Source: Symbiodinium sp. CCMP2592 (lineage: Eukaryota > Sar > Dinophyceae > Suessiales > Symbiodiniaceae). Taken from it: DNA of 64,000 nucleotides. Location: positions 214,001-278,000 of the forward strand of contig CAJNDT010004713.1 in the NCBI GenBank assembly GCA_905221615.1, written 5' to 3'. Position numbers and translations under genes: made by a program. A model generated the notes under the pieces. That model did not search any database. It had not been told where the DNA came from and saw nothing but the letters and a program-made list of their open reading frames with translations. Shown here piece by piece: positions 35,303 through 61,665 of the stretch. Positions within the stretch are counted from its first letter, which is position 1; each line of letters begins with the position of its first letter.

Positions 35303-35315
35303 AGCGGCCTCAGAG

Positions 35316-43203: not shown

Positions 43204-43239
43204 ATGCGGAAGAAGGTCGACGGCCGGATACGGACGCTG
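43204..43239 (+). CDS. NAT10-like gene, exon 1 (start codon)
   Basis: Encodes MRKKVDGRIRTL, the invariant amino end of the family. The donor is CTG^GCCGCG (GC type, phase 0). An AG at 43199-43200, just before the ATG, could accept a trans-spliced leader as is usual in dinoflagellates; that is inference. Hairpin B4 ends about 105 bases upstream. Confidence 0.85.
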
Positions 43240-46200
43240 GCCGCGATCTTAACGAAAACCTGCAGGGATTGAGGGCCTGGGGATTTTAGGGTTTGGGGTT
43301 TAGGGTACCGGGTTCGGGGTTTAGGGCTTGGGGAAAACATCCAGGAGTTGAGGGCCTGGGCTTTGGTTTCTGGCTGAGGGTTCAGGGCCTTTAGAGTTTA
43401 GGTTAGAAGCTGCCCCTACCCTGTAGTAGTGGTATAATAGGAATATAAGAGGGCCCTAATATAATCCTATATAATCCTTATAGTCACTATTACAGGGTGG
43501 GGGCAGCTTCTAGAGTTTAGGGTTCAGGGCTCATTGTTTGGGGTCTTGGGTTTAGGGCCGTTTAGGGTTTGGAAGTCGCGATTGAGGGTTAGGCTTGTAG
43601 AGATACGACTGGAGTCCAAGATTTGTCGTGCATCAGCGCTAAAGGCTACTGGCCGGAAATTTCCTACCCTACTGGGCGAGAGACGTCGTTTCCGTCGCAA
43701 ATCCAGGGTTGAATGTCAGAATTTCTGAATTCACAACAGCTGCCATGAAGCCTTAATCCCCCTCTCTAGATCCCCAAAAACCAAAGTACGAGAGATTGAT
43801 ATACTTCTTCGGCCCCAGCGTAGGTACTGCTTGTTTAGGATTGTTTGAAGCCTTTCCATCAGGCTGACAGCCGCCCAGAAATCCCACATACTGAGCATCT
43901 GAGATTTCTTGGGCTCATATCAGCATGACCCCCTTGCAAACGAGGGGGGAATCTTCCTTGAGCCTAAGAACTCCGCAGCTAGCTTGCGGATCCCATTTAA
44001 GGATCCCTTCAAGGAAACCTTCCTACTGTAACCGTTCGACAAGCACCGTACAAGGCGAGTGTTGGGTTGCTCGTTGCCTTGGTCCTACCATACTTTCCTT
44101 GGGTTTTTCTTTTGTTCACATAAAACCCAAGAGAGTATTAAACCTAGTATTTTTATTATGGTTCTAGTCTAAGGGTGCATAGACTAAGCCACAGAGTAAC
44201 TTGGGCTCTATAGTCTCCTTAGGAAGGTTTTTTCATTTTTAGTCGTACAAAAGCCAAGAGAAGATTAGAAATAGTTTATTATGGTTCTAGGGGAGTATAG
44301 GGCTTTGCATCTTAGAAAAGCAGTCTTTGAGTTCTATGGACACCTGAAGAATTGCAGATATTCAAGCCTTCGATTATACCTTGATTACAGTGTTTTATCC
44401 CGAAGCCGCATGGTGTGTCCTAAGGCTCCCTTATTTTATACCCCGTACAGGTACAACGAATCCTTCGGTTTAGTTCCGTCCCGGCAGGACTAAGGCTGTA
44501 CTTGGCCGGCTTCGGCTTCTGGTTTGGGTCCCATGATCCTAGTCTCGCACCCTTATACATCCCAATTGAAAGAGCAGAGCTTATCCTGAAAGTGCCATTT
44601 GTGTAAGCCTGAGGTCGAAAATGGCATCAAGACGCACACGCGCAGCATGTTCGTCATCGCCGCTTGGCACAAGCGGGGTCGTACTCCCAGAGAGCCCAAT
44701 AACCCTTAATTAAGGAATATGGCTTAAATCATACTATGAACCCCTATATAATATAAGCCATGTTCCTTAATTAAGGAGTATTGGGCTCTCTGGGCTTCTC
44801 TTTCGCCATCCCAAGCACAGGAAACCCTGAAGCCTTGGATTCGTCTGAATCGGAAGTCCACTTAGGTGGGCGACCGCGGCCGCGACCAGGCGGGGGGAAT
44901 TGTTCTAAAGATCCGTCTAGAAAAGCAGTGCTCGGAAGTGGGTTTGATTTGGTGTAGCATAGACCCTACGAAAGAGTAACCTTGTGAAGCAACAAAACTG
45001 CACTGCCGGGTTTAGGTGGTTCGGTAGGTTCTTCGAAAGCAGCAAAGAGATAATCTTGTTTCAAGGGACTCCAAGCACAGCTCAGAGGTGGTCAACCTGC
45101 ACTTCATGATGCACAAGATCTCCAATACCAAGCCATCAGTTTTGTGGCCGCGGCCCTATGAAAAAGGACTTTGCCGGGACGTGTGTTCCGTTTTAAGATA
45201 TTCTACGTACATCTGCATACATACCTGTGTCTATATGTCTCTCCCCGGGTGTTTATCTGTCTGTTTGTCAGTCTGTCTACTCGTACCTGTCGGGTCGCAT
45301 GCTTCGGGGTGCATGCGGCGCGTGGTTTGTCGCTGCTTGGAGATGCGCGCTGGCATAGTATCAAGTGATATTTCCGTCGATTGTTACTTCGCGGCTGGTG
45401 TCTACATTCGTGAAGAATGGGATCAAAAGCTGGACTCCGAAAGTAGAAAAGCCATGCTGCATTCCTGTCTTCACCACCTTTAGTATTCCCGCAAACCCTA
45501 AACCTGAGCCCTAAACCCTGAACCCTTAGATGTTGGTGATGTCTTGGTTTTTTTCCTTGGAATTCACACAGACCGAGTCTTCAGATGGACTGTGGTCTGC
45601 TCGTTGCTGATAGTGTATCAGTATTATCACCAGTATTGTTAGTCTTCTTATTACTGTATATCTATATACATATATAGATTTGAAAGAAAGCCTTGGATAG
45701 TTTTGGGGATGGCGGCTGCAGGGTTTGTGGTGAACAAGCGTTTTGGGCTTCGGTGTTGCATGTTCCTTGACTACCCGGTAGCTCGGTTGCTCTAAGTTGG
45801 GTCTCCTCTGGGCCCTTAACAAAGCGTGGCATTTTTCTAGCAAATACCCACAGCTCCAAGCACTAAACCCCAAGCCCTAGACCATAACTCTAAGGCGACC
45901 CCGAGAAAACACAGAACCGCAGGTGCTACAAGTAGTATCGAACACTGTTTGTTAGGGTTCTGGTCAATGTACTGAATGCTTACATTAAAGCTTCTCGCGA
46001 CCCTCATAGACCCATTTTCCAACTAATGTAGGAGCCTGATTCAGAAACCCTGGGCCTATAACCCCAAAACAATCGGATCCATGTAAGGAACCCTAATAAA
46101 GGCTCAAGGTTTCTTAATCATTTTCCTACGTTATGAAGGTGCTACAAGAAGGAGCTCGGCTTCAGCACCCACCGGAAAAAGCGTATGAAGCAGGCGGAGC

Positions 46201-49200
46201 TCTTCAAAGATGCTTCTGTCAAGCTCTGTCCTCCTAGGATTGGTGATTAAAATCCTGCAGCATCCTAATGACCGAGACTGGGAATTATGGTATACTCCGT
46301 ATGATGGGTAATGCAGGATTCATATCATCAACAGTAAGGTCCCAGTTCTAAGTGGAGATCATGGTCGAGCATATAGCCTGTTTGGTTTCTCGGTACTGCG
46401 AATGTAGTTCCTTCTGTGGTTATGTATTCATGTATTGGCGCCTGTGCATTTACATGTAGATGTGTATGCAGGTCTATGTTTTGTTTCGTGTTTTTACAAA
46501 CAGAGTAGAACAGTAACGGATAGCGACTAAATGTATGCATGCAAACGCACACACTTAAACATAGGTATATTTGCATACATATTATACACTTAGCTACATA
46601 CGTACATTTATACATGTCCACATATGTGCATTCCCCCGCACATGTGTACATGCACACCTGAATATACACATGTATATGTACGTGTATATATGTATGTACG
46701 TACGTACGTGTGTATTGTAAAGACGCTGTTGGGAAGATTGAGTTGGTTGGGTTCCGGTTCTTCACGTAAGTGTGGATGGACTTCAGAGGTTACAAGCATG
46801 CCGATCCATGCAACGAATGCAAACCGATCAAGTTTTGAAAAGGCTTAGCGCCCTCTTGGAGCTGTTGCGGCTGTTTCATCACTTTGCGATGTCGTTCGGT
46901 CCCAAGGCGCGTCTTGGAAGGTTGGTGGCACACGTCACGGCAGCGCCACTCGGGCTAACCCTCCCAGACGAGGGCGGGTTGCCCCAAGAAGCGCTGGAGA
47001 TCCTTCAGGCCCTTGACAGATTGAAGAGCGGGCTCTTCCAGGCAGACAGCCAAGCCACGGAGCAAGGGACGATCTCGGAGGGCACATTCAGTCAGCTTGT
47101 CCATCTCTTCGCACAGTTTCGTCGCGTCATGAACAACAACATTGGCGACCGCGCAGTTCTTCCAAAGGAGGACAGGAAGGCAGTGGGCCGTTACATCCAA
47201 AGGGAGCTCCTCCCCATCATCGCACTGGCCCCTCTCCCCAACCGCATGTACACCAAACCTTGTGGTTATGCGGGGGACTATCTGACGATAAAGATGATGT
47301 ACGACCACCGCAATCCGGAGTTCCATGGCGAAGGCAACCTGGGCCCCATCCTACATGAACTCTTTATCAAGGTCCCAGCTTTTCAGGCTGTCTGCAATCG
47401 CCGTGGGCTCCTGGCAAACGAGGTCGCCGAAACCATCGCTGCCGCGGCGTCCGAAGGCAGGGCTGCACAGATCACGAGCCTGGCCTGCGGCCCTGCCCAA
47501 GAGACCCTCAGCTGTCACCTCAAGATCTAGAGTGGGGTTTAGGATGTAGGTCCCACGGGATGAGGTCAAGCTTGGTCACGGGCAACAGTTCATAACAGGC
47601 TTGGGCTTTTCACCAGATGCTGGAAGTGCAGGATGCTAAGAAGTTTCAGAACCACGGCAGAATCAAGGCCCTCTGAGGACTTTTGAGCTTCCAAAATATG
47701 AAGTCATTTCAGTCAGGGACAGCCACTGACGTATTGCAATGGCCCAACAGCCAGTGGTCACTAGTCTTCCGTGACGAAGAAGCTGTTGACTATAGTCTCC
47801 TTAGGGAGTATTTTTCATATAAAGAACCGAATAAAGGGGGGTACAGAAGAAGCTGTTGAAGTGAGGATCTTCGACATCTACGAGACCTTACCAGATCCCG
47901 CCTCGCTCCAAACGTCGCTTTTGGACATCGACAAGCAACTCGCTCCGGAAGTGCCCAAGGTAAGTAACCTTATTTTTTTGGGGGGGGGACTATCATCCCT
48001 AAGTAATTCCAAGAAAGGTCCGGAAGTTCCCACATAACCCTTTTTTGGTGAGTTTACTACAATCCCTACATATTCCCCACCAAAAATATCCGGATGTTCC
48101 TATCAAGGTCAAAGCCTGAAGCTCCAGTTCCTAAGCCCCAAGCCCTGAAGCCTCAACCCTTTAAATACCCTACACTACTATGTGCTTAAGAACCCCCCAA
48201 AAAATAAAAAAAATGTATTCCTTATGGTGGTAATATAGGGATTATTATTTTTAGTTTTTGGTGGTTTCTTAAGCAAATAGTAGCTACACTACCCTATAGA
48301 TCCCCTTTAGAGGATCCCCAAAACCCCGAAACCTCTCAACCCAATGAAACCCCCAAACCATACACCACTAAACCTTCGGCCCACCAGTCCGGGTCCAATC
48401 CTCTCACAAGTATTCCTCTCATTACGACTATTGATCGCATTTATCGTCACTGCTACAACGTTTCTTAAAATATTACTGCTTGTAAGGGCCACTCTGAGGG
48501 TTCGAATAGTATTATTCGCACTATCATCATTGCTAAAACGTCCTTTTATTTTTACGAACTGTAAGCGCCCATTTCCGGGTTCGAACAAAGACACCTACCC
48601 CAATCCCTAAACCAAACACCCGATCCCTAAACCCCGAACCCTTCAAAAGGAACCCCGTAGACCTAAAAGTAGATCCCTTAATCGGTGTTCCTAGAAAGTA
48701 CCCTTAGCAGTATAGGGCCCCAAATTTTCCAGATCCTCCCGGGGGTCTAGGTTAGGGACCCCCGTAGACCTTCGAACGAGACTGAGGCGTGCCCTGGAGC
48801 TGATCGCCGCCGCAGCGGAGGAGCGCCGTCTCACGGAACACCTCCGGCTTCGGAAGGACCGGGCTTCCTGCAGTTCCTGGGGGGCTTCTTTGGGGTTTGA
48901 GGGTTTAGTCACGGCTTTAAGGGTTTAGTTTCGAGTTTTGGGTGATTTTGATGGGTTTCTGGGACGGTGATTCCTGGAGTCTAGGGTTTCTTGGGGTTTA
49001 AGTGTTTTTGGGTTTGCGGTTTGGGGGCTTTTGGGCTTGAGTTTAGCATTTGGGGTTTGTTCAAAGTTTTGGGTTTGGGGTTTCGGATTCTTGCCAGGGT
49101 TCTTCATCGCCGACTTTACGGGTTCGGCACTTAGAGGCCCAGGGGACTTAGCAAGTAGGTTGTAGGTAGAGTTATAAGTTCCGTAAATGGAGTCACCCAA

Positions 49201-52200
49201 GTTTAACCCTGCAAATTTCACGCCGACTTATAAGTCACCTGGGCCTCCAACTAGGGGTACTGAGAAAGGTGGTTGAGGGGTCCGATCGTTTTAGCAGGGT
49301 TCTAAACGAGCTTGTTGCTGGGCTTGATTTTCTGAAGAAGCGGTTGGGTTAGGATTGGATATTATGGCCAGTGGTTTTACTAAACCCTAAACCCCTAAAC
49401 CCTAAACCCCAAACCCAATTTCAAGGTATGCCAGCAGTTCAGTATCCCCACGGCTTTACTTCCTCTCAGCTCCCAGACTAGACCTTCATCCCAAACCCTG
49501 ACCCCTCGACTCTACCGCGTAAACCAGATACCCCAAAACCCCAAAACTTAGAAGCCCCATAAACCCTAAACCCTTAAGCGCTACATCCTGAAACACCCCT
49601 ACAGCACGGTGTCAGAGGCAAACTTGATCCACCTGGCCCTGGGCCGTCGCAGCGTGGACGTACAAGAGCAGGATACGGCGCGGGGTTGAGGGTTGCGGAT
49701 ATATGTGTGGCTATAGCGCAATAGGGTTCTCAAACTTCGGGCTGCGGGGTTATAGGATTGTCACTGTAGGGTTGTATAGCGCTTGCTGTGGGGTTGTAGG
49801 GTTTCGGGTTGTTGGGTTGGCCTATACGGAGCTCACACATCTTGTAGCCAAAAGCGAGTCAGGCTTGTTGCTCCGCTCTCTCCCCGATGTGAGAGTGCAG
49901 TAGTTCATTCGGCTTTAGGTCCCAGTAAGTTTCAAGTCTTCGGGATGATATCAGGACCTGGTCTATACGATTGGCCTCATCGACTACTTCGACGATGAAG
50001 CTTGGTCGAACCTCGAGAACTAGCTTCTTTCTGCACCGGCAGGATCCAATAGTGTAACTTCAGCTGACAGTGTCGCCTTGTGCTACCACCAACATCAGCC
50101 TAGTGTTGTCTGTAAGCAAGATGCCGGAGCATTTTCCGTTTCACTCGGTCCGTTTCACTACGGTACCGTCCCAGGCGTTGCGCATGTTCTGGGTCTCATG
50201 TTTGCCTGAGGGGTTGCATCTGTAGGACAGCGACCCGAGTTGGGAACGATTGACTGCTGAACTTACTGTAGCGCGGCCGAAGCCCGGACACGCACGCTCC
50301 CGACGGATTCTACACACATTTTTTAGTATAATATAGAGCACTGACTTAATATAATATCATAAACTTTTCTATACATTATTGCGAACATAGCGGCCCTAAC
50401 ATCCTCTCATGTAAGTACGCTGTACTACGTAAGAACTCAGCGCCCCTTTGAGTCCTTTGGGATCCCCACAGCCGGCAATATATTAACCTAGTATAATACA
50501 CTATACGGTTCCATACTATACTGTAATCTACTATATTATAATATACTGTATTTTAACATACTATAATGAACTAGAGTATACTATACGATTCCCTACTATA
50601 CTCGAATATAAAATTAATGTATCTACCAGCCCGGGGCCCCAGGACATGGTTGTGAAGCTCCTCTCTCTGGCGCACGACATGCTCCGGCCGGGTGGGCGAG
50701 TGATCGTGGGAAATTTCCACACAAGCAATCCGGACAAGGTGGGAAAATTTTTGGGGGTCTGGGGTTTTGAGGGTTTAGGGTTTAGGGTTCAGTTTAGGGG
50801 TTTTGGGTTTAGGGTTTAGGCAATCCGGACAAGGTGGGAAAATTTCCGGCAGCTTCGGGTTGTGATACTCTCCATGGGCCCACAGGTCCATGTGCCTATA
50901 CAGCATGCTGTTTCCCTAACGTTGCTATGTCGGAACCTATGTGAGGCCTCAGCAAAAATTGAGTTCGTACGCTAAGAGCGCATGGAGTTTCATGGATTGC
51001 GGGGGTCAAAAGCATCGTAAGCGGCGCCGTGCTTGATGAGGGCTGCCGGAGGTTCGAGGCATGAAGCTAGTATTACTATACTACTATAGTACTACTATAC
51101 TACTATACTATACTACTATTATTACTACTATACTACTATACTATACTACTGTTATTGCTATACTATCTAGTACCATACTACTATACTATACAAGGCAAAG
51201 GAGTGCACGGTTCAATTCTTCGAAACGACCTCAGAAGAAGGCGGCCGGTAAAGAGGCCATGGCAACAAAGAGCGATGGTAAAGTACACATGGGAGTTTCC
51301 GAGAATCAGGGGTACCATATTTTTAGGGTACTTACACTGAGGATCCCACTGTTTAGGGTACTATAGTAGGATCCCTTATATTTCGGAAACCCCCACCTGA
51401 CCGGGGGAGACATGTGAGACTTGAGTTACCTGACGGGACTGTTTCGATTGGAGTGGGGAACGTGTGGTTCGCCTTTGCTGTCTGATTTTCTGCAAGCCTT
51501 TGAACCTCACATGTTGCTTTAAAAGGTCGCAGGCGTTGTCATCGCAGCAAAAATTGCGCCAAAGCCGTGGAAACACATCATGTCCGCCGCAGGCATTTAT
51601 GGACTATGTCATGGAATGGCCGCTCATACATCGCGATGAGACCAAGATGCATGCCCTGTTCAAAGCCTCGAAGTTTGGGAAGCCGTGTGACCAGATTCAC
51701 TTCGAGGCGGCTGGTGTGAACCTCTTCGCCGAGTGCTCCAGGAGCTAAGCCAAAAGTGGCCCCATGCGGCACGGGTTTGCGAAGTCTTGCCCTCGTTGCC
51801 CAGTTATGACAATTATACTGAGCCGTAGTAGCTGTGTCCATTTACCCACGAGGGAGACGGGTCATCTTCCACATCTTGTTAAACTGGACAACACGGTACT
51901 TGCTGCGTCCACCTGAGCGTACTGCAAGCTACTGTGGAGGACTGCCCCGATTTTCCATGGTTTGGAAGGGCAGGCCCGGGAGGGCAAGGCTCGGCAATGC
52001 AAGGAAATCTAGGGGTCGGAGTAGTTGGTAATGCTGTCCCCTTTTACAAGATTGGAGTTAGAGAGTCATAGCTTTTCTAACATGAAGGCCCCTGTATTTG
52101 ATGCGTGCCCTAGTTACTTGGTTGATGTGAGGTTTTGTCATGCTTCCATTTAAGTTGGAAACTGGATGTCCGGATTGCCCTGCATGCAAAAATCCTAGAG

Positions 52201-55200
52201 GGAATACCAGCGCTGTATTCATCCTCTTTACAGTTTCCAACTTATGGGGGTTATTGAGAAAGTTGATGCTCCCACAGTAGGCGTCGATGTAAATCGACAT
52301 GCTCGCAAGTCCCGTTTATGAGTCCGCTCGCGCTCTTCCAGCAGTTCCAGCGGCTGTGCTGAATCACCCACAGAGTTCTGAGTACCTCAGTTCTGCTTCG
52401 GCTGAGGCTTTAGAGCTAAGGTTTCACAAGACTCTACATACCAGATACAGAACACCATGTAGCGATGAAGCTACTCAGGACCTCAGGGGCAGCACACAAC
52501 TGAGTGGACGGTATACGGGTTGAATAGCTCGTTGCTTTGGGATGGCGACAGGCGTCGCCAGCCAGACGCAACGAAAGCTTGTGCTTGCGGTGCACCTAGA
52601 AAGATTGTGGTTGTCAGAAAAGACACATGCAGGCTACGCAATGTCACGTGGACTAATATTCCACGCCCATAGCATTCCCAAAGACTTCTCCTGCGATGTT
52701 CATCCCTGCAGGTTCAGGTTATGGTTGAAAGCAGTGCTGCCGGTTGCGGTGTTGTTCTGCGCAGCAAACAGACTACTGCTTGGTGTGCAGTCGAGAAACT
52801 GAGCTTCTATGGCAGGACTGCTTGTGCTAGCTTCTAGGGCGTCGTCTAGGGTTTATAGTAGTTCCGCACGACATAGTAAGAACTAGTGCTGCGATTTAGG
52901 CTCCTTGGTACAGACAGATTATGCCATACCCCACAAACCTGTTCCAGTTGTTCGGGCTGCTATCTTTTCTGCAACTGTCAACTCCACACACCTCCAGGTG
53001 AAGAAGATGAGCCCTAAACCCCTGAGCGTATGAAGAAGATGAACCCTAAACCGTAAACCCTTGAACCCTTGAACCCTAAACCTTCGAAACTCCACACACC
53101 TCCGGGTGAAAAAACGATGAACCCGAAACCGTAAGCCCTTGAACCCTTGAACCCTGAAGCCTCGAGGTGAAGAAGATGCAACAGCGAGGGCAGTTGGATA
53201 CGAATGTGGAAGATCCGCTCCTCGGCCCTGAGTTTGTGATTCGAGGTAGGGGTGCCTCAAGTTAGGGACCCAACAAGCACGTAGGCATAAGGATCTTATA
53301 GGGATATCCCTACCGTATTGGGCTTCATTCTAAGGGGGTTTATATGGGATATCCCTATCCTATGTTTTTGCTTATGTGCTTTTTTGGGTGCCTTAAGTCA
53401 CAGATGTAGAAGGCGGTCTTATAAGCACTCTGCAAGGGATGTAGAAAACCGGGTGAGCCTACTTACTAAGTCCCTTGGGCCTCTAAGTGGGCTCACTAGG
53501 GATCTTGGTGCCTGCGTCTCGCGGGTGTCCTTTCGGAAGTTTGAGATACTGGCAATGATGGGTCGGACTTGTTTATACACACCGGATGGAACCCAGCAGC
53601 AAGCCCGAACCGCAACTGCGTGAGCAAAATCTCTTGGTTTCTAGGGCCTGAGCAATTGGCAGTGGCCTGCACCCCCCTTACAGTCCTTGTACAAGGACAC
53701 CAAAATGTAGATCCAACCCCTGAACCTTGAGCCCTACCCGTATCAACCATGAACCTTAAAAGAAAAAATCTGTTCTAAGTGTTGATGCTTTCGGTACAAA
53801 TCAAATTCCTACCGATTCCTGAACCCTCCAGCCGATCTCAGCTAAAACCCGGAAAGGCCAATGGAAACCCAAACCCTGTATCCCGTGTAGAACCTGGTGC
53901 TGCCTCGTATACATCAAACAGCTGTAACAAAATGTTAGAAGGCCTCATAAGCCGAAAATCGTTCGTTTCTGATTTCTAACCATCACGATTGGGTCTTGAG
54001 CTACCACAAGGCCCTCGAAGAAGCTGGGACAATTGGGAATGCTCTTCCGTAGCAAGAGATCCCAACCAAAAAAAGCGAAACCTACCCATGGGTTACTTCA
54101 GGACATTCGCACAGACATGTCTTAAACCTTCAGTCGTAAGGCATACGGTCGCAGTCCTAAACATTGAGCCCTCGTAGTTGGGAGCTAGCACAAGCGCAGT
54201 TCGCAGGTTCGACCTCTTCATTTCATCGACGAACATCCGGTACTGCCTGCCTTGCATGTGGGAGCTGCTTTAAAATTTTCGGTCCAAACAACACGAGCAC
54301 CTAAACCCTAAGCGCACACACACACACACTTCAGCTGTAGCTGTTCTCGATGGAGTTCCATTAAGGACCATACTTTAGAACAAGTCGTCGCTCGAGACAT
54401 TTCCGCATCGTATCGGATGTTTGGGTGATCAGGCACATCTTTTCCTGTTGTCTACTCCGCAGGAAGACGTATTGTGGGGTTGTGTTACTTAGACGCCCAA
54501 GGGACTTAGCAAGTAGGTTATAAGCAGGATTATAAGTAATTACCCTAAATGGAACTGCCCCAATAATAACCCTACTTATAACCTACTTACTAAGTCCCCC
54601 GGGCCTCTAAGTAGTGCCGTCAAAGCTTTCGGCTCCCGCTTAATCCGGGCAGAGGCAGTTTGCATGAGAAACCTTCAATGACAGTCTGGTGCTCAGTAGG
54701 GAACGGGGGCATGGATCCCGATAGTAGTCCCAGTATAATCCCCAAGAGTAGTCCCCATAGTCCATCCCCTCATTCCCTACTAAGAGCAAAAACAGTAAAG
54801 GACCCCTTATAGATCCCGTTATAGGATCCCTTATAGGATTCCCCTTAAAGGAACCCTAAGGCCATTCCCCCTAAACCCTAAACTTTTTAAGGATCCCATA
54901 CCATTCCCTACTAAGAACCAGACAGATGATCGCCGGATGAGTTCTCAAATGCAGGGGGTCTCTGCTCTAGGACTTTACTTGGCGTTCTTCTGGTTGGCTC
55001 TTTAGACTTTAACTTTTTGGGTTTCTATATGAATTATAATAAGGAGGCTAAAAGTGTAACTTTTAGGAGGGGTTCAGAAGTGAGCCAAGTTTAGGGGCCT
55101 AAAAAATGACCTGTACTCTTCGTTGGGGGCTCCTCAATATCATTATGGTATAATATAACCCCAAAACCTATTCTAAATGCTAAGGCCCCTGTAGCTCGGG

Positions 55201-57519
55201 GTTTAAAATTTTATGATAGAATGTCATGCTAAATAGGCTCGCCGATGGCCTTATGGCCCTTATGTATCTACTGTGGCATCTCGTTATTGAGGGCTCTGCT
55301 TCAGGCTGCCACAATCTTTGTAAGACCACCAATCGCGGAGTCTTTGTCGGGAAGTTGCTCATCCTCCTTCGTCACAGTACCGGGACTTTAGGACCTTCCT
55401 CCGCCAAGCTCTGTGCTCGGGTGGCGAAGAGCTGAAGGTTGGGTAAATGGCGCGAAGATCCCAAAAGAAGCTCAATCCCGAAACACTAGCCTCCAAGCCC
55501 AATGCCAAAAAGCCTAGAATCAAAACCTCTGAAGCGTCATAAACCACCTACAATCTTACATTGCCTGCGGCGAGAAGGATCCAAGTGATGAAACCCTAGG
55601 GCTGGAAGACTTGCACTATTTTGAGAGAACCAGGGTTCTTTGCATGAGAAGATCGGAAGTTTGTAGGAACACCACTCGAAAAGCCCTTTTCCTTTTCCTT
55701 GCTGCACCAGTGTTATACCGTAAGCCGTAAAAGCCCCTGGTTCGCAAGTAATACATCATGTGTACTTATTTTTCTTTGTTTGGAGGGTTGGGGGGGTTGG
55801 CGGTTGGGCTTGCATTTCTTAAACTACAGCACAACGGAATCCTTGTTAGAGGGGCCGCTGTGGAACTCCCAACGCACCCTAAAGTCAAGCAAGGAGTTGC
55901 GAATCTTGGTGAAGCCAGGCTACTACAAAGAGACAGAGCAGGTGCTGGGCAAGACCTTCGGAATGTGCTGTCCTCATCGACAGGGTCCTACATCTCTCCC
56001 TAGACCGTCATGTGAAACCGGAATCTCATGAAAAGAGCCATGGGGTCTCTGTCGGCTCGCCAAGAGATCCTAACTTTCCATGAACATAATAATCTTTGTG
56101 GGACCTAGAATATGTCAGTCTTGAGATGAAATCATTCAGTGTCGCATCACTTATGTTGGGGGTTTGTTGGCATTAGGGTTTGGGCATCGGGTCGAGGTTT
56201 TGGGGCGCAAAGTAGGCGTCAGCTCGTTCATCTTTGGGTCGCTTGCAAGCCCTCAAAATCCCTCCAAACAATCTCGATCCGATCCCATCCCGTACAGCAG
56301 GTTGCATTCAAGAAACCCGTACGGAGTGCTTGAAGGAATCGGATCAAAGCAACAGCCCAGAAAGCCTCGCAGGGCCCAGGGCCGTGCAAAGCCTTTACAC
56401 AAGCCGCAAGCCTGAAAGGAGCCCTCAAAACCCTAAGGAACAAGCAACCGAAGCAATTCCTTACCAACCCCTTGAAACAACCTCTAGAAATTACAGCCCG
56501 AGATCATCCGTCAAAACCGCTACAGATCGCTTAAAAGGAGCCCTGAGACCCCACACCTTCACCTCTTAAAACCCATGGCCCATAACTAAAAGAAACCAAA
56601 ACCCTCAACCCTGAACGCCCCAAGGCAAGAGCCATCCTTCAGAAGGAGCCCGAAAGCCAAATCTGAACAACAACAGCAACAACAACCTAGACCCTGAACC
56701 CCTAGTAGAGCCCTTGTACTACCGTTAAGTCGGCCCCACAGCAATCATCTCACAGGTGCATCCTTCAGGACTTCGAGGCCTTGACTCCCAATCTGCTCTG
56801 CCGTGTGGTAGAGACGGCTTCTTGGCACGAGACAACAAGGGAAGTTCAGGGTTTGGAGGTATATTAATACCATAATTATAATAGGGAACCACCAAAAACA
56901 AGGGGTTCAGGGTTTGGAGGCATATTGTACCATAATTATAATAGGGAACCACCGAAAATAGTATTGGTAAGAAGGGTTTGGGGTTTGGAGCTTACTTACC
57001 TTTAGTTAGCAGGGAATGGAGGCATGGGGTACCATTATAACTACTATTTCTACCATTCTTCCATTCCCTACTAACCAAAGGTAAGCTTAGGGTTTAAGGG
57101 CACAGGCTCTGAGGGTGTTGGGATCCTCTAAGCTTCTTCCGGCTCCTTAACTTTAGGGCTTCCTCTGACGGTCCCTTTAGGCTTTGGGTAAGCTTTAGTG
57201 TGTTACTTTAAGGGTTCGTTTCTTGGCTCCCTTAGTTTAAAGGGGGGATTTGAAAGACCTTAGGGTTTAGCGAGGCTCAGCACTAAAGCTTCCTGTACCT
57301 GAGGCTTGAGTTCGAAATAATTGAATTGAATCCCGAAGAGCGAAGCCTCACTTATGAAGCCCGAGGACCCGAAACCCTAAACCCATAACTCTCAAGCCTG
57401 AACCTCGAAAGTTAGATCTTCAAGTCACCAAGCCTTTCTAACCCCTAAACCCCTAACCCTGGAAATTCATGAGCTCTTTACAAATCCATCAGAAGCCCGA
57501 GGTGGAGGGTGGAGGCATC
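43204..57519 (+). CDS. KRE33/NAT10-type RNA cytidine acetyltransferase, 5' part of gene (10 exons, continues)
   Basis: Enzymes of this family (NAT10 in animals, Kre33 in yeast, TmcA in bacteria) make N4-acetylcytidine in 18S rRNA and tRNA and act in the nucleolus in small-subunit assembly. Ten exons joined in phase encode the conserved N-terminal domain: MRKKVDGRIRTL, VENGIKTHTRSMFVI, VGDRGRDQ, VVNLHFMMHK...PSVLW, CYKKELGFSTHRKKRMKQ, VKKMQQRGQLDTNVEDP, FDLFISSTNIRY, CYYKETEQVLGKTFGM, CILQDFEALTPNLL and VEGGG. Exons 1-9 total 414 nt, 138 codons. The start is the ATG that begins the family's MRKKVD block. Every acceptor is AG^G; donors are GC except exon 8 (GT) and exon 10 (GT in this model). 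The helicase-like ATPase and GNAT domains must lie beyond the window or in unfound exons. A complete methyltransferase gene sits in intron 5. Identity is very likely; some edges may be off by a few bases. Confidence 0.88.
43405..43511. repeat. Hairpin Q, in NAT10-like intron 1
   Basis: AGAAGCTGCCCCTACCCTGT ... ACAGGGTGGGGGCAGCTTCT, long near-perfect ends. One copy only. Confidence 0.9.
44088..44166. repeat. Family W element, in NAT10-like intron 1
   Basis: TTTTGTTCACATAAAACCCA, AGAGAGTATTAAACCTAGTA and TTTTTATTATGGTTCTAG. Confidence 0.8.
44209..44290. repeat. Family W element with GT...AG ends
   Basis: Starts GTCTCCTTAGGAAGG, holds AAAGCCAAGAGAAGATTAGA, and ends TTATTATGGTTCTAG^GGG. The ends look like a GT donor and an AG^G acceptor. 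Confidence 0.82.
44614..44658 (+). CDS. NAT10-like gene, exon 2
   Basis: Encodes VENGIKTHTRSMFVI, matching the family block ENGVKxxHRSLFVIV. The acceptor is CCTGAG^GTC and the donor ATC^GCCGCT (GC), both phase 0. Most of the 207-base intron that follows is hairpin F4. Confidence 0.87.
44686..44794. repeat. Hairpin F4, fills NAT10-like intron 2
   Basis: CCCAGAGAGCCCAATAACCC ... GGAGTATTGGGCTCTCTGGG. It accounts for 109 of the intron's 207 bases. Confidence 0.93.
44866..44889 (+). CDS. NAT10-like gene, exon 3: 24-nt micro-exon
   Basis: The 24 bases encode exactly VGDRGRDQ, the invariant loop that follows FVI in this family. The acceptor is CTTAG^GTG and the donor CAG^GCGGGG (GC), phase 0 at both ends. 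Without this micro-exon the motif would be missing from the protein. Confidence 0.88.
45088..45146 (+). CDS. NAT10-like gene, exon 4
   Basis: Encodes VVNLHFMMHKISNTKPSVL plus TG of a Trp codon; the family has VVNLHYMLSK...ARPSVLWCYKK. The acceptor is CAGAG^GTG (phase 0). The donor is TTGTG^GCCGCG (GC, phase 2), and the Trp codon is completed by exon 5. The frame stays open past the donor, but the translation then leaves the family. Confidence 0.87.
46139..46193 (+). CDS. NAT10-like gene, exon 5
   Basis: Starts ATGAAG^G; the G completes the Trp codon, followed by CYKKELGFSTHRKKRMKQ, matching the family's CYKKELGFSSHRKKRMRQ almost residue for residue. The donor is CAG^GCGGAG (GC, phase 0). The next exon of this gene is 6,973 bases away; the methyltransferase gene fills much of the gap. 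Confidence 0.9.
46234..46336. repeat. Hairpin N2, in NAT10-like intron 5
   Basis: TTGGTGATTAAAATCCTGCA ... TGCAGGATTCATATCATCAA. About 40 bases after exon 5. Confidence 0.82.
46772..47502 (+). CDS. Methyltransferase exon 1
   Basis: One long open block with codon-like, GC-rich sequence, unlike the flanks. It carries MYTKPCGYAGDY, then NRRGLLANEV, and ends in the SAM-binding ITSLACGPAQ plus GA of a Glu codon. The donor is CAAGA^GACCCT (GA type, phase 2), chosen because exon 2 then gives GPAQE-IFDIYETL. Reading on gives a stop 24-26 bases later. The true 5' edge may be an AG^G acceptor, e.g. before 46788. Confidence 0.88.
46772..51748 (+). CDS. PhcB-like SAM-dependent methyltransferase (hydroxypalmitate methyl ester biosynthesis type), 7 exons
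   Basis: The bacterial homologues are predicted S-adenosylmethionine methyltransferases; PhcB of Ralstonia makes a 3-hydroxy-fatty-acid methyl ester signal. The substrate here is unknown. Seven exons join in phase to 1,239 nt (412 codons plus TAA), about the bacterial length. In order: a helical N-terminal part; the signature CGYAGDY (about residues 164-170); the SAM motif SLACGPAQE-IFDIYETL (236-252); LLDID (263-267); ANLIHLALGR; DLVYTIGLIDYFDD; LRPGGRVIVGNF; and the end FMDYVMEWPLIHR...GVNLFAEC. Acceptors of exons 2-7 are AG^G; donors are GA, GC, GA, GA, GC, GT. Exon 1 is one 731-nt block while the rest is in pieces. The whole gene lies in intron 5 of the NAT10-like gene on the same strand. 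Bacterial ancestry is inferred from the family. The start codon is the first in-frame ATG and is uncertain. Confidence 0.87.
47776..47859. repeat. 14-bp direct duplication flanking a small insert in methyltransferase intron 1
   Basis: GAAGAAGCTGTTGA occurs at 47776-47789 and again at 47846-47859, exactly 70 bases apart and 6 bases before the exon 2 acceptor. The insert starts CTATAGTCTCCTTAGG, the head of family W (also at about 20491 and 44207). This looks like a target-site duplication. Confidence 0.8.
47866..47952 (+). CDS. Methyltransferase exon 2
   Basis: Starts GTGAG^G (completes Glu), then IFDIYETLPDPASLQTSLLD and the DID acidic end of the second SAM strand. The chosen donor is GAAGT^GCCCAA (GC, phase 2), which joins exon 3 in frame. 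A better-looking donor AAG^GTAAGT lies 7 bases on (47960) but is in the wrong phase for exon 3 as drawn. Confidence 0.75.
47945..48103. repeat. Three near-direct copies of the exon 2 end in methyltransferase intron 2
   Basis: CCGGAAGTGCCCA at 47945 (exon 2 end) is followed by CCGGAAGTTCCCA at 48020 and CCGGATGTTCCTA at 48090. The two spacers (75 and 70 bases from copy start to copy start) are hairpin-like (TTTTTGGTGAG ... CACCAAAAA in the second). This resembles two nested insertions with duplicated target. Confidence 0.65.
48183..48280. repeat. Hairpin L2, in methyltransferase intron 2
   Basis: TGCTTAAGAACCCCCCAAAA ... GGTGGTTTCTTAAGCAAATA. Confidence 0.88.
48653..48772. repeat. Hairpin O2 with CCCCGTAGACCT at both ends
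   Basis: Related to O1 (AGTACCCTTAGCAGTATAGG, GATCCTCCCGGGGGTCTAGG). CCCGTAGACCT occurs on both sides (48654 and 48762), an apparent target duplication about 15 bases before methyltransferase exon 3. Confidence 0.75.
48787..48856 (+). CDS. Methyltransferase exon 3
   Basis: Starts ACTGAG^G, then RALELIAAAAEERRLTEHL and RLRK, the helix and strand expected between DID and the NLIHL block. The donor is AAG^GACCGG (GA, phase 0). Assigned by position, length and phase rather than a strong motif. Hairpin O2 ends about 20 bases upstream. Confidence 0.65.
49129..49253. repeat. Hairpin A7, in methyltransferase intron 3
   Basis: ACTTAGAGGCCCAGGGGACT ... AGTCACCTGGGCCTCCAACT; more diverged on the right. 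Confidence 0.82.
49618..49671 (+). CDS. Methyltransferase exon 4
   Basis: Encodes ANLIHLALGRRSVDVQEQ, matching the family block NLVYLAxGR...Q-DLVY. The acceptor is CAGAG^GCA and the donor CAG^GATACG (GA, phase 0). Confidence 0.82.
49955..49999 (+). CDS. Methyltransferase exon 5
   Basis: Encodes DLVYTIGLIDYFDDE, one of the most conserved blocks of the family. The acceptor is ATCAG^GAC and the donor GAA^GCTTGG (GC, phase 0); GAT^GAAGCT (GA) is an alternative. Confidence 0.88.
50643..50738 (+). CDS. Methyltransferase exon 6
   Basis: Encodes 32 residues, DMVVKLLSLAHDMLRPGGRV then IVGNFHTSNPDK, the LRPGG turn and strand of class I methyltransferases. The acceptor is CCCCAG^GAC and the donor AAG^GTGGGA (GT, phase 0). 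The last 13 coding bases plus donor are repeated 95 bases downstream (see the duplication entry). Confidence 0.9.
50726..50845. repeat. 25-bp exact duplication flanking a telomere-like insert at the exon 6 donor
   Basis: The 25 bases 50726-50750 (CAATCCGGACAAG plus the donor GTGGGAAAATTT) recur unchanged at 50821-50845. The 70 bases between are degenerate TTTAGGG repeats. Confidence 0.88.
51061..51190. repeat. (TACTAC/TATAC)n tract in methyltransferase intron 6
   Basis: TACTACTATA and ACTATACTAC units fill most of 51070-51187. A related ACTATA-rich stretch covers 50465-50600 in intron 5. Confidence 0.85.
51291..51394. repeat. Hairpin C5, in methyltransferase intron 6
   Basis: GGGAGTTTCCGAGAATCAGG ... 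ATATTTCGGAAACCCCCA. Confidence 0.88.
51593..51748 (+). CDS. Methyltransferase exon 7 (terminal)
   Basis: Starts CCGCAG^GCA and encodes AFMDYVMEWPLIHRDETKMH through GVNLFAECSRS to TAA at 51746-51748, the carboxyl end typical of the bacterial family (F-M-x-x-V-x-E-W-x-L-I-H-R, then N-L-F-A-E-C). Confidence 0.9.
   Translation, partial: AFMDYVMEWPLIHRDETKMHALFKASKFGKPCDQIHFEAAGVNLFAECSRS
51749..53166. other. Rest of NAT10-like intron 5 after the methyltransferase
   Basis: Contains hairpin R and two modest open frames (52299-52523, 52542-52802) that look mildly protein-like but match nothing and show no clear splice edges, then CCCTTGAACCCTAAACC tandem repeats at 53035-53160. Confidence 0.5.
52151..52245. 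repeat. Hairpin R, in NAT10-like intron 5
   Basis: TAAGTTGGAAACTG ... CAGTTTCCAACTTA. One copy only. Confidence 0.85.
53167..53216 (+). CDS. NAT10-like gene, exon 6
   Basis: Encodes VKKMQQRGQLDTNVED plus CC of a Pro codon, matching the linker before DPFELF in the family (K-K-x-x-x-R-G-x-L-D). The acceptor is CTCGAG^GTG and the donor GATCC^GCTCCT (GC, phase 2). The exon lies just after a tandem run of CCTTGAACCC-type repeats. Confidence 0.8.
53459..53489. repeat. Hairpin A8, solo right end
   Basis: CTACTTACTAAGTCCCTTGG then GCCTCTAAGTGGG; no left arm. In NAT10-like intron 6. Confidence 0.65.
54207..54244 (+). CDS. NAT10-like gene, exon 7
   Basis: The leading G completes the Pro codon of exon 6. 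The exon then encodes FDLFISSTNIRY plus T of a Cys codon; the family has FELFIAATNIRYCYY. The acceptor is CGCAG^GTTC and the donor TACT^GCCTGC (GC, phase 1). Confidence 0.86.
54486..54613. repeat. Hairpin A9, in NAT10-like intron 7
   Basis: TACTTAGACGCCCAAGGGAC ... CCCCCGGGCCTCTAAGTA. Confidence 0.88.
54691..54787. repeat. Hairpin E3, in NAT10-like intron 7
   Basis: TAGTAGGGAACGGGGGCATG-type left arm (CTCAGTAGGGAACG) and CCCCTCATTCCCTACTAAG; loop rich in TAGTCCC. Confidence 0.72.
55919..55964 (+). CDS. NAT10-like gene, exon 8
   Basis: Starts GCCAG^GC, completing Cys, then YYKETEQVLGKTFG and AT of a Met codon; the family has CYYKETEKILGNTFGMC. The donor is GGAAT^GTGCTG, the clearest GT donor in this gene (phase 2). 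The frame stays open past the donor into CCPHRQG, which does not fit the family. Confidence 0.88.
56756..56816 (+). CDS. NAT10-like gene, exon 9
   Basis: Starts TCACAG^G, completing Met, then CILQDFEALTPNLLCRVVET; the family has CVLQDFEALTPNLLARTVET. The donor is ACG^GCTTCT (GC, phase 0). This is the most conserved block found and confirms the chain through exons 7-9. Confidence 0.92.
56853..56957. repeat. Two-copy tandem repeat
   Basis: GGTTCAGGGTTTGGAGG, then ATATT..TACCATAATTATAA and TAGGGAACCACC, occurs twice about 60 bases apart. Confidence 0.75.
56994..57084. repeat. Hairpin E4, in NAT10-like intron 9
   Basis: TTACCTTTAGTTAGCAGGGA ... CCCTACTAACCAAAGGTAA. Confidence 0.9.
57502..57519 (+). 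CDS. NAT10-like gene, exon 10
   Basis: Encodes VEGGGI after the acceptor CCCGAG^GTG, continuing ...VVET from exon 9 into the family's TVEGGGLVV. The donor is not certain: ATC^GTCGGC (GT, phase 0) or GGAG^GCATCG (GC, phase 1). Confidence 0.7.
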
Positions 57520-57629
57520 GTCGGCACCTTAGACAGCATCGTCACTTTGGGCTCGGGGCCTGCAGAGTGTAGGGTTTAGAAGAGTTGTGTTACTAGAAGA
57601 GTTGTGTTACTACCTTAGGCTTCTATAAT

Positions 57630-57725
57630 ATTCGAAGGGTCCGAGGACTTGGTAAGTAAGCTACAATCTACAACTCGGATTATATGACCGGGGTCCTAGG
57701 TTCTAAGTCCCATGAGCCTCCGAGA
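57630..57725. repeat. Hairpin A10, diverged
   Basis: TTCGAAGGGTCCGAGGACTT, GGTAAGTAAGCTACAATCTA and AGTCCCATGAGCCTCCGAG; arms still pair partly. Confidence 0.6.
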
Positions 57726-58158
57726 AGTCGAGGGTGTGTGGTTGAGGAGCTCAGCTGATGGGCGGTAGGCGGGACTTGGTGGTTTACAGGAGAATTGGGG
57801 TGAGCGCATATTCGGCTCCATAGAAATGCTGGCAGCAGCTTGCGAGAGTATACTAGGGCCTTTGCTGTGGGAATACTTTTCTGATACTGGACTACAAAAG
57901 TTCATCTGCGTAAACACTATGGCTCGGACACGCCATTACGTTTCAACGCCTTAAGCAGCGAATAGCCGAGGAATGGGCATGTAGAGGTTCCTTTCGATGT
58001 TCAAGCTATTGGGCCTTATCGGGCGATACCTTTCCAAAGTCCTAGTATGAATTTCAGGCTGTTCCTTTGTTTGAGGGGTTTAGAGGGTCGTTTTGTAGTT
58101 TTGAACCTTCACAGGCCCTTTTTGCAGTTCGACGTTTTAGAGCTCGTGTCAGTTGGAG

Positions 58159-58172
58159 GTCGTTCTGCTAAG
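58159..58172 (+). CDS. Possible NAT10-like exon 11 (14 nt)
   Basis: Between TTGGAG^G and AAG^GCGGCC (GC donor) lie 14 bases encoding VVLL plus AG of an Arg or Ser codon. This would continue VEGGGI with the expected VVxLL(K/R). It fits by phase and by the AG^G rule, but a 14-base match can arise by chance. Confidence 0.35.
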
Positions 58173-58252
58173 GCGGCCCTTTTCTTTAGTCTGACTGCTT
58201 CGAAGTCGTTGGCTTGTACGTACTGTTTGGTTACACAGTAGCTAGGATGCCC

Positions 58253-58352
58253 AGTAGTACCCTTATTCCCTTTTTGTAGTCCTAGGTTCCTTATAAAGTT
58301 ACCCAATACCAAAAAGAGAGGCCTTTTAATTCTTAGGTTACTGGGTATCCTA
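58253..58352. repeat. Family M element
   Basis: GTACCCTTATTCCCTTTTTG, AAGTTACCCAATACCAAAAA and GGTTACTGGGTATCCTAGG; ends pair as CTAGGATGCCCAGTA / TACTGGGTATCCTAG. Confidence 0.85.
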
Positions 58353-58469
58353 GGTAGGCTTTCCAGTTTCAGCGCTGCCAAAAAGCAAACGCGTCGGCCA
58401 GCAAGAGTAACTGCAGTCGACGGTGCTGGCGTAGCACAGGGGCCCCTAGTAATTAGTACTGACCAATAG

Positions 58470-58583
58470 TACTTGGAGGATCATGGGACTTAGTAAGTAA
58501 GGTTATAAGTACCTTAATTGGGGTTATAAGTATAGTTACTCTAATTATAACCCTAGTTACTAAGTCCCATGATCCTTTAAGTA
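58470..58583. repeat. Hairpin A11
   Basis: TACTTGGAGGATCATGGGAC ... GTCCCATGATCCTTTAAGTA. Confidence 0.9.
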
Positions 58584-59702
58584 GTCCTCAAAGTCCGGCC
58601 CTAAATATACTTATGCTATAGTCAAGGCCACCTGTATTAGACCACATTTCAAAATGCGACGCTTAGCTTTGCCCTGGACTCTAGACAATTAGGCTCTTCG
58701 GCCTTTAGAAGACAACAGATCTCTCACATCGCTTTGCTGAGGTGTTGTTGCTGTCTGCCTGGCTGTGTTTCAGCTTTCAGTCGGGTGCACGGGATGCGCT
58801 GTATCACATTCAATGCAGGCTGATTGAAGTTCGGCGCCGGGTGGTGGAATGGAGTCTCTGTATTTACTACTGTTGAACTAGCAGTGTTCGGACGATGTGC
58901 TGGTAAATCGAATTACAAGAGCGCCTGTTGATGGCGAGTGTGAATGAGGGAGGAAATGACAGGGGCATATGCTTAACCCCAAGGCTCTAAGCCGAGAAGC
59001 CGTGCACCATAAGCCTTGCAATCCCTGAATTGCTGCCACGTCCATTCTGGATACTTTGTTTCGTAACATGGCAGAAGCTGCAAGAGCGACAGTGGTCACT
59101 GCGAGCATGGTTGTGTTAGAAGGTTAGCAGCGACCACATTCCGCGTAGCAAAAGATTTCAAAGATAGTACCCGCTCTCTTGCATGTTTCAGCAATAGTAG
59201 CCTTACTCATAATCAGTTACACGCCTAAGTCATTTCAGCATCACCTGAAATGGGTGGGCGAACGTCAAAACCCCAACCGGCAAACTCAAGCCTATATATG
59301 CACCCTTTGTAAACTTTGATCCCTAATGCCTTGCCCCTCACCTCAAACCCCGTCTCCTACGACCTTCAACTATGCCCATGTCCGAATGTAAGCCTTGCGG
59401 GACCTCAATCCGAAGCCGTCTTTCCGGTGCCTTCTTTTGGGTCTCCTATATCAGTTTCGCGAATAGCTTACATTTACAAGATACAGCGTAAAGCTCCGGT
59501 TGGGGGCTTTAGGGTTTACGGTGTTGGGTTGGCTTGGGCTTTACGGCTTGGGAGGTTCGGGACAAGATCCGACATGCCGCGCCTTTCTCGATGCCGTTGG
59601 TTCGGAGCTGCTGTGTCTGTAGGTTTAGGCTTAAGGGTTGTATGACTATGACACCCAGGGTAAACATACTCAGAATCTCGGGGCGGGGCTTAATCAGAGG
59701 AG

Positions 59703-59732
59703 GCCTTCCGCGTTTGGCGATGTGCACGCGAG
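59703..59732 (+). CDS. Possible short exon
   Basis: GAG^G to GAG^GTCTGT (GT donor). One frame gives PSAFGDVHA plus AG; DVHAR would recall the MDVHxR block of NAT10, but the residues before it do not match. Kept only as a candidate. Confidence 0.22.
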
Positions 59733-60711
59733 GTCTGTGCAGGAGCCATGTTCAACAACAGTTTGATAAGCGAAATGAGTCCAGACACTAGTTAGACGTC
59801 CTAGAAAATGCGTGTTAAGTGATGAGGACCAAGCGCTGCCAATTTTAAACCATGTTAAACCCATTCGGGGTTATGGTCCATGAGCATTGCAAAGCCGCTC
59901 GGAGCTCTAGCACCGTGGGGATCCCCGTTTCTGTAAATGTTAGATTGGGTCACTTCTTGCATAGGACCGCAGGCGTTGCATCTCGAAGACCAAAGACGCC
60001 TTGCCACTACACCCTATCGTTTGCACTTAAACCTAAGCCCTCAGCTCGCGCAACGTCAGCCCCAAAGGGACCTCATAGGCTGTAGGCAGTCGTCTTTCAA
60101 CTCTGCAAGTACTGTTTGGGCACTGGAACCTTTCAGGCAGGTACCACCCACACATCACCCGGAAGGCTAGAAATAGCCTATACTCCCTGCATTGTTGCCG
60201 CTTTTTGTAGCACGATATTCTCACAGGACCAGCAAGAAGAGCCTAGAACCGTAAAGACCCTCTGAAACCTCTGAACTAGACCCCAAACGCTGCAAATTCC
60301 CTGGAGGATGTTCCGGCGCGAGCCTCAACCTCCCACATTCATCCACTCCCCCGAAGAAGGCAGCGGTGGACTGGGGAAGGTTGTGAATGTTTTTGTAAAA
60401 ATTGTTTTTTATAAAAACAAAAAACTGTTTGTAAATACAATTAATTCCCTTGAAGCGTTGCTGCGGGTCGCATAAAAGGATTCGACAATGTTTTTTGAAG
60501 GGGGGTCTAGAGTTTGGTGTAACAGCTTTGCTGCCGGGATTATATTGGGCTTAGGTTTCCCACCTACCCCCATATTCTTGAATCGAAGTAGCTAACTAAA
60601 TTGCTGTCAAACATATAAACCGCCTATGAAGGACCTTCCCCAAGTTCCTGGTGCTCTAGACTTCAAGCCCTGCGCTGGAGGGTTCAGGTTTTAGGTTTGA
60701 AGGTTCAGGAT

Positions 60712-60748
<37 letters not shown>

Positions 60749-60947
60749 TACATATATACATACATATAAATATACACACATATATTCTTCTATAGATTAG
60801 ATTTAGGGGAATATATGGCTTTGAAGAGCAGAGGGTTAGCCTCCTGAAACGCAGCATAGACTCCGGACACCGTATGCCCTGATTTTGGGGCGTCCCTATG
60901 AACACCGAACAATGGCAAAGTGAGCGCCCTGAATACTGAGTCAACAG

Positions 60948-61062
60948 TACTTAAAGGATCATGGGACTTAGCAACTAGGGTTATAATTAGAGTAACTATA
61001 CTTATAACCCCCAATTAAGGTACTTATAACCTTACTTACTAAGTCCCATGATCCTCCAAGTA
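60948..61062. repeat. Hairpin A12
   Basis: TACTTAAAGGATCATGGGAC ... GTCCCATGATCCTCCAAGTA; close to A11. Confidence 0.9.
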
Positions 61063-61181
61063 TGGGTTCATTTGGAGGCTTTGCTAGGTTGCTCCCCTGG
61101 CCACCGTAGGGTGGGTCTAGCTAGCCAAGGTGCTTGAAGGAAGGGAGGCTAACCGTTGAAGGGGGATTGTTCCTTGGGCAG

Positions 61182-61246
61182 GCCGATCGGAAAGCCACAA
61201 GAAGCTTCTTGATGACGTCAAGAGCTTCATGGCAGGCCTCCTGCGG
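61182..61246 (+). CDS. Candidate exon
   Basis: TGGGCAG^GC then RSESHKKLLDDVKSFMAGLL plus CG; possible donor CGG^TGTAAA/CG^GTGTAA. Helical and coding-like; the minus strand is also open (HEALDVIKKLLVAFR). Unrecognised. Confidence 0.42.
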
Positions 61247-61466
61247 TGTAAAGTGCTGGGCTCCTGTTATGCCAGAGGTTTTATAGGACCCTGGGGTGTT
61301 AAGACTTAACACCCCCAACACCCTAGCCCCCGAAATCCTGAGACCCTGAACCTTACACCCCTAAGCACTGAATCCTGAACCCTGAACCCCGAAACAATAA
61401 ACCCTTCAACCCGAAACCCAAGCTGACACATTCCCGGTGAGTTGGGATCAAAGCTTCGTGTAACAC

Positions 61467-61592: not shown

Positions 61593-61665
61593 AAGTCCCA
61601 GAGCCCTGAAGCCATGACCTCGTCTCTAAGTGGCGGCCGAAACCCTGGGGATCATCTGGCATCAT

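Follow-up and report, generated by a model that had tools for sequence, protein, structure and literature searches.

The window that we analysed, a stretch of DNA of 64,000 nucleotides (64 kb), contains one gene inside another. All seven exons of a putative methyltransferase lie between exons 5 and 6 of a NAT10-like gene and on the same strand, as confirmed by spliced alignments of both genes. The methyltransferase frame is open to its stop codon, and the NAT10-like frame is intact to residue 145 within the window. We put the probability at about 80% that the same-strand nesting is real and belongs to a dinoflagellate-like nuclear genome, with NAT10 being cis-spliced and the methyltransferase having a separate mRNA.

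The host gene is predicted to encode an RNA cytidine acetyltransferase with a TmcA_N domain. Spliced alignment to human NAT10 gave ten exons, all on the plus strand and collinear with the order of the protein (score of 333, versus 34–53 for 12 shuffled proteins and 49 on the opposite strand). Exon 1 (43204–43239) carries the ATG start (MRKKVDGRIRTL); the alignment begins at 43207 and was extended by hand to the ATG. (An alignment from 43500 had placed exon 1 at 44492–44521, but this was a weak match and was superseded by 43207 in a run reaching further upstream.) Both tblastn and spliced alignment identified exons 2 (44614–44658), 3 (44866–44889), 4 (45088–45146), 7 (54207–54244), and 8 (55919–55964, donor GT). 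Exon 5 (46139–46193, donor GC), which is the last before the methyltransferase, was found with tblastn against the window (E = 7e-6) and with spliced alignment; exon 6 (53167–53216, donor GC), which is the first after it, was found with spliced alignment. Exon 9 (56756–56816) was found by tblastn against the window (E = 2e-5) and by spliced alignment. Finally, exon 10 (57502–57523, VEGGGIV) had its last base, for phase, and its GC donor placed by hand. The joined exons matched the Pfam domain TmcA_N (PF08351) with E = 1.1e-44 (152.8 bits, cut-off 22.7), and the joined product is identical to human NAT10 in 98 of 145 columns (residues 3–147). When exons 5 and 6 alone were joined, they had 7 PDB matches at E up to 10, all of them to NAT10/Kre33. 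The preliminary description had placed these two exons and the intron between them (intron 5, 46194–53166; 6,973 nt, GC-AG) exactly where spliced alignment puts them. Human residue 75 is the last covered by exon 5 and residue 76 the first covered by exon 6, so intron 5 is in phase 0. The nesting would stand even without the short exon 6, since exons 7–10 are likewise downstream of the methyltransferase.

The seven exons of the guest gene (46808–51748, plus strand) join into an open frame of 393 codons plus a stop. They are exon 1 (46808–47502, donor GA), exon 2 (47866–47934, donor GC), exon 3 (48787–48856, donor GA), exon 4 (49618–49671, donor GA), exon 5 (49955–49996, donor GA), exon 6 (50643–50738, donor GT), and exon 7 (51593–51748), which terminates with TAA. 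The 5' end is provisional: we count from the first in-frame ATG at 46808, whereas an earlier reading began at 46772, and the sequence alone cannot fix it. The end of exon 3 (48856) and the start of exon 4 (49618) were placed by hand, using the AG/G rule (an acceptor AG followed by G), the frame, and a by-eye ungapped match to the protein of one bacterial relative (L005). Exon 3 was recovered automatically with just one of three bacterial references (L003), and with different junctions (48846 and 49605); with the other two, the aligner placed the end of exon 2 at 48002 and the start of exon 4 at 49616. Paraburkholderia and Rhizobium references gave yet other pieces around exons 3 and 4.

Judging from its product, the guest is a complete, bacterial-type class I SAM methyltransferase gene that is distinct from the host gene. 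It is related to bacterial class I SAM methyltransferases with the motifs K-P-x-G-Y-(A/S)-G and V-Y-x-x-G-L-x-D-Y, from Nitrospirae, Gemmatimonadetes, Saprospiraceae, and Myxococcota MAGs and from Mycolicibacterium, Sorangium, and Paraburkholderia. By blastp, it is 40–47% identical to eight bacterial relatives over 270–331 columns and 30% identical to a Paraburkholderia plasmid protein. In a first pattern scan of genome contigs, none of 15 matched stretches was confirmed as encoding a relative; in an alignment-based scan, which retained the best 80, at least 566 of 593 pattern-matched stretches encoded one. Among viral contigs, relatives were found in 3 of 30 matched stretches. A first, incompletely joined model had no significant match in PDB, NCBIfam, or Pfam. 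A better-joined intermediate model of 397 residues improved the E-value of the best Pfam methyltransferase match (0.087 before, 1.4e-5 after) and that of the best plasmid match (4e-20 before, 3e-25 after), although the Pfam scores of this model were below the curated cut-offs (26.1 bits versus 30 for Methyltransf_12 and 23.8 versus 27 for Methyltransf_25). Unlike its bacterial relatives, the gene is broken by six spliceosomal introns. Also, several of the relatives have an N-terminal extension (by eye, a putative cyclic-nucleotide-binding-like domain) that was not found upstream of the methyltransferase here: with four bacterial references, the upstream scores were 37–46, as compared to 34–49 for five shuffles each.

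The splice sites of both genes fit dinoflagellate nuclear gene structure, with GC and GA donors beside GT and with AG/G acceptors. AG/G acceptors are typical of dinoflagellates. All 15 of the inferred acceptors were AG/G, against a background of 29% of AGs being followed by G in 43–58 kb, but one of them (49618) was placed by that rule and the aligner gave a small bonus to such acceptors. Across both genes, the 16 donors (two placed by hand) comprise 10 GC, 4 GA, and 2 GT, and all three types have been published for dinoflagellates (PMC11453091). The methyltransferase introns have 4 GA, 1 GC, and 1 GT donors and the NAT10 introns have 9 GC and 1 GT (post-hoc Fisher test, P = 0.008, n = 16 including the two hand-placed donors).

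We propose that the NAT10 pre-mRNA would undergo ordinary cis-splicing of the GC-AG intron 5, joining exon 5 to exon 6. The methyltransferase mRNA would be made separately, with its transcription either reading through on the plus strand or having a start of its own. Spliced-leader trans-splicing at a site upstream of 46808 might create its 5' end, and polyadenylation past 51748 would create its 3' end. Unidirectional gene arrays in dinoflagellates are described as presumably being transcribed as a unit, with a spliced leader added (PMC11071213). However, according to a review, polycistronic expression is apparently rare in dinoflagellates (PMC11453091), an argument against the read-through version.

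The preliminary description had suggested looking for a spliced-leader 5' end near 46772, but no AG upstream of the methyltransferase stands out as an acceptor. It had also counted 13 splice sites that the host intron must skip. The thirteenth of these would be a spliced-leader acceptor, which is so far hypothetical. A genomic relic of the DinoSL is not obligatory. A search for its final 15 nt that tolerated as many as 3 mismatches gave 3 weak matches in 64 kb (2.68 were expected by chance) and none within 43–58 kb, so we rejected the relic as a mark of retroposition. In Polarella glacialis, the share of transcripts with a recovered DinoSL was just 13.54% and 50.39% (PMC7245778).

The methyltransferase probably entered a pre-existing intron of NAT10, because intron 5 without 46771–51748 would be about 2 kb, which slightly exceeds the size range of the other eight complete NAT10-like introns (198–1,674 nt). 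Insertion of a gene, as suggested earlier, is still plausible, but neither a spliced-leader relic nor a flanking direct repeat of at least 16 nt marks the event. Specifically, 46194–53166 contains 15 families of direct repeats of at least 16 nt, and none pairs the flanks of the methyltransferase, as a target-site duplication would.

An alternative view of expression is that making one product precludes making the other: the NAT10 transcript would be truncated when the methyltransferase undergoes spliced-leader trans-splicing and polyadenylation, and cis-splicing of intron 5 would destroy the methyltransferase. We consider this unlikely. If it were true, then RNA processing alone would choose which enzyme is made, and the contrast in donor types could let the spliceosome distinguish the host from the guest.

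Another possibility, at similarly low odds, is that the nesting is an assembly artefact in which a methyltransferase contig was misplaced within the NAT10 gene. The locus was seen in a single assembly, and there are repeats (telomere-like tracts and a palindromic element) within the interval and beside exon 6. On the other hand, an artefact would require two wrong joins within one intron and in the correct orientation. The window contains no N, the exons are collinear, and the NAT10 exons for residues 1–145 are neither duplicated nor lost by tblastn and spliced alignment. Furthermore, nesting is on record from this group (PMC7245778). Thus, the earlier suspicion of an artefact found no support.

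It is comparably improbable that the host gene is a NAT10 copy that has been truncated or has decayed, leaving no working host transcript that spans the methyltransferase. The product in the window covers the first 145 residues, as compared to a human chain of 1,025 residues. The next conserved segment (LLRTMNSLKQLYT...) was not found in 57400–64000, and nothing beyond residue 145 was found in 57524–64000 by spliced alignment of human residues 139–330 or by scans with five peptides. (The sole weak match as far as 64000, at 59803–59880, scored 45, versus 32 for the reversed protein, and was rejected as a later exon.) The helicase and acetyltransferase domains were not seen by tblastn with residues 1–919, but the window may stop short of them, and intron 10 may simply exceed 6.4 kb. 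Against decay, the ten exons are in frame, with consensus splice sites and the identity to human NAT10 given above.

Least probable is that NAT10 is trans-spliced from two pre-mRNAs (exons 1–5 and exons 6 onward) with an independent methyltransferase between them, as the preliminary description had considered: dinoflagellates do use spliced-leader trans-splicing (PMC7245778, PMC11071213), but no sequence feature demands it here, the exons form one collinear set that is in phase over intron 5, this intron has a GC donor, an AG/G acceptor, and phase 0 like other NAT10 introns, and a dinoflagellate intron of 26,372 bp is known (PMC11453091).

As for other genes in 57.4–64 kb, a Pfam scan of 7 of the 38 plus-strand open stretches of at least 45 aa listed there, plus one stretch upstream, gave no accepted match. 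The sole Pfam match among the stretches scanned around this region (E = 0.037) was below the cut-off and at chance level. An exon-like piece of 31 aa had no PDB matches at E up to 10.

At the sequence level, the NAT10/methyltransferase locus offers a clean case of a gene nested on the strand of its host. It lies in a type of genome where genes are thought to follow one another in long unidirectional arrays and to have a spliced leader added. There, a gene within a host intron could do without its own promoter, and this might partly account for the frequent nesting in Polarella. There is also a practical implication: annotation that ignores introns under 10 kb could overlook the guest or split NAT10 into two false genes.

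Nested genes in human and Drosophila also sit in introns, as the methyltransferase does, and these genomes are not known to have general spliced-leader trans-splicing. About 6% of Drosophila genes are reported to be intronic (PMC3786989). Among human nested genes, about 63% are reported to lie on the opposite strand, which leaves about 37% on the strand of the host (PMC3192792). So, contrary to the preliminary description, same-strand nesting is not especially awkward.

Gene nesting as such is already known in numbers from a dinoflagellate, and the methyltransferase in a NAT10 intron is a further case. Nested genes make up 8.4% and 6.5% of the genes in two Polarella glacialis genomes, the one species behind the dinoflagellate frequency, where the account of nesting leaves the strand unstated (PMC7245778). 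Its authors report that full-length transcripts confirm the nesting (PMC7245778). In the EvidenceModeler step for those genomes, genes within introns were permitted only above 10 kb (PMC7245778), so cases like this one could be under-counted. The word "nested" is absent from the main text of both the 15-genome Symbiodiniaceae paper (PMC8045281) and a dinoflagellate review (PMC11453091). P. glacialis shares with our locus protein-coding genes in the introns of multi-exon hosts, non-GT donors, and mostly unidirectional genes (PMC7245778). In the example described there, an alanine-tRNA ligase gene holds 15 nested genes, many of them light-harvesting, distributed over three of its introns (PMC7245778), whereas here a 7-kb intron holds one seven-exon methyltransferase of apparently bacterial type.

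Spliced alignments bore out the claim of the preliminary description that a whole methyltransferase gene is nested, in the same orientation, within the intron that separates exons 5 and 6 of a NAT10-like gene. We assign the guest to the class I SAM methyltransferases and model it at 46808-51748, counted from the first in-frame ATG. The host exons that it had placed at 46139-46193 and 53167-53216 (both + strand) were reproduced to the base. We used a spliced aligner written for this analysis, which allowed GT, GC, or GA donors and AG acceptors, with human NAT10 (identical to PDB 9j3c_A over 919 residues) as the reference. Several NAT10 pieces were already visible in protein order by plain tblastn against the window, and spliced alignment identified ten exons, with a score of 333; 12 shuffled proteins scored 34-53, and the opposite strand 49. 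The joined product of 145 residues matches TmcA_N (E = 1.1e-44) and is identical to human NAT10 at 98 of 145 columns. Exons 5 and 6 alone gave 7 matches in PDB at E up to 10, all of them NAT10/Kre33. The first run placed exon 1 weakly at 44492-44521; a run reaching further upstream put it at 43207 (+), which we extended to a start codon at 43204 (MRKKVDGRIRTL).

Neither spliced alignment nor peptide scans found a later NAT10 exon in 57524-64000. If the gene continues, its intron 10 spans at least 6.4 kb. With most of NAT10 absent from the window, the host may be either truncated or a full gene whose intron 10 is long. An exon-like piece at 63830-63925 (+), with AG/G before it and GT after it, encodes HSKMKMIQSIMTHLREEGFQVPRFLRELHNS, which by eye is not NAT10-like and has no match in PDB or Pfam. 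If NAT10 extends past the window, this piece may belong to a second nested gene. Upstream, an open frame resembling a terminal exon (35299-35796, +, 166 amino acids) has no Pfam match and is probably part of another gene; by eye, a tandem array follows near 35.85-36.08 kb. Palindromic MITE-like elements (ends like TTAGAGGCCCAGGGGACTTAG...CTAAGTCCCCTGGGCCTCTAA) occur in several copies in introns and spacers, at 49131-49250 (repeat search) and 54490-54610, 61470-61600, and 63930-64000 (by eye).

For the guest, spliced alignment with three bacterial relatives gave seven exons (we chose by hand where exon 3 ends and where exon 4 begins) and a protein of 393 residues, with TAA at 51748. A first, incompletely joined model had no significant match in PDB, NCBIfam, or Pfam. 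Tblastn found bacterial relatives on plasmids (best E of 4e-20, or 3e-25 with the better model). In an alignment-based scan of prokaryotic genome contigs, at least 566 of 593 matched stretches encode relatives, the best 80 of which have 29-51% identity. By blastp, the protein is 40-47% identical to eight bacterial relatives over 270-331 columns. The frame is open across the catalytic region at this identity, which speaks for a functional gene and not a decaying copy. A bacterial origin is a natural guess, and the relatives come from a prokaryote-only collection, which is silent on horizontal transfer. One relative, from Paraburkholderia, adjoins an ATP-binding protein and response regulators, an arrangement (L001:2063-5942) that may resemble the phcB-phcS-phcR quorum-sensing operons.

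The two genes differ in their splice donors. The 16 donors (46194-57524) comprise 10 GC, 4 GA, and 2 GT: 9 GC and 1 GT in NAT10, vs. 4 GA, 1 GC, and 1 GT in the methyltransferase (Fisher P = 0.008, a post hoc comparison of few sites, in which two donors, those after NAT10 exon 10 and methyltransferase exon 3, were placed by hand). The acceptors, 15 in all (one placed by hand), are without exception AG/G, vs. 29% AGG among the AGs of the region. A review gives a range of 25-74% for GC/GA-AG in Symbiodiniaceae (PMC11453091). Taken together with how the genes are oriented and the type of repeats present, the splice sites suggest a dinoflagellate genome, perhaps from the Suessiales.

Two exon junctions are duplicated next to telomere-like sequence. 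The 26 nt at 50725-50750 (GCAATCCGGACAAGGTGGGAAAATTT), which cross from methyltransferase exon 6 into intron 6, recur exactly 95 nt downstream (50820-50845), with a TTTAGGG-rich tract between the copies. This tract is an insertion with a long direct flanking duplication, in which the donor site was copied too. The second junction is at NAT10-like exon 6: directly 5' of it, 52980-53166 holds two tandem 70-nt copies (80% alike) and shorter repeats, which include near-copies of the exon's start (GGTGAAGAAGATG) alongside CCCTAAA-type repeats.

Intron 5 (46194-53166) is 6,973 nt long, vs. 198-1,674 nt for the other eight complete introns of the host. Without 46771-51748 it would be about 2 kb, slightly longer than any of these. 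It is therefore simplest to suppose that the methyltransferase gene entered an ordinary intron. We infer this history, and the expression of both genes, from sequence. One primary RNA might read through both genes and be processed in either of two ways: joining exon 5 to exon 6 by cis-splicing would remove the methyltransferase, while trans-splicing of a spliced leader in front of it and polyadenylation behind it would yield its mRNA. No AG upstream of the methyltransferase is conspicuous as a trans-splice acceptor. A separate transcription start for the methyltransferase would fit the sequence equally well. An assembly error is improbable as the source of the nesting, as it would require two joins that preserved the order of ten exons and left no N, and the window contains none.

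Nesting is reported as common in the dinoflagellate Polarella glacialis: introns contain 4898 (8.4%) and 3359 (6.5%) of the genes in its two genomes, with up to 18 and 24 per host, and the authors describe confirmation by full-length transcripts; their EvidenceModeler step permitted genes inside introns only where introns exceeded 10 kb (PMC7245778). These frequencies are hard to generalise because the word "nested" is absent from the main texts of a 15-genome Symbiodiniaceae paper (PMC8045281) and a review (PMC11453091). Of the P. glacialis transcripts, only 13.54% and 50.39% yielded the dinoflagellate spliced leader (PMC7245778). Dinoflagellate genes are described as forming long unidirectional arrays, presumed to be single transcription units matured by spliced-leader addition (PMC11071213); polycistronic expression is apparently rare, according to the review (PMC11453091). 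To call same-strand nesting awkward, as had been done from the sequence alone, was too strong, because that orientation is expected for a guest where arrays are unidirectional, and because, even among human nested genes, about 37% are reported on the same strand as the host vs. about 63% on the opposite strand (PMC3192792).
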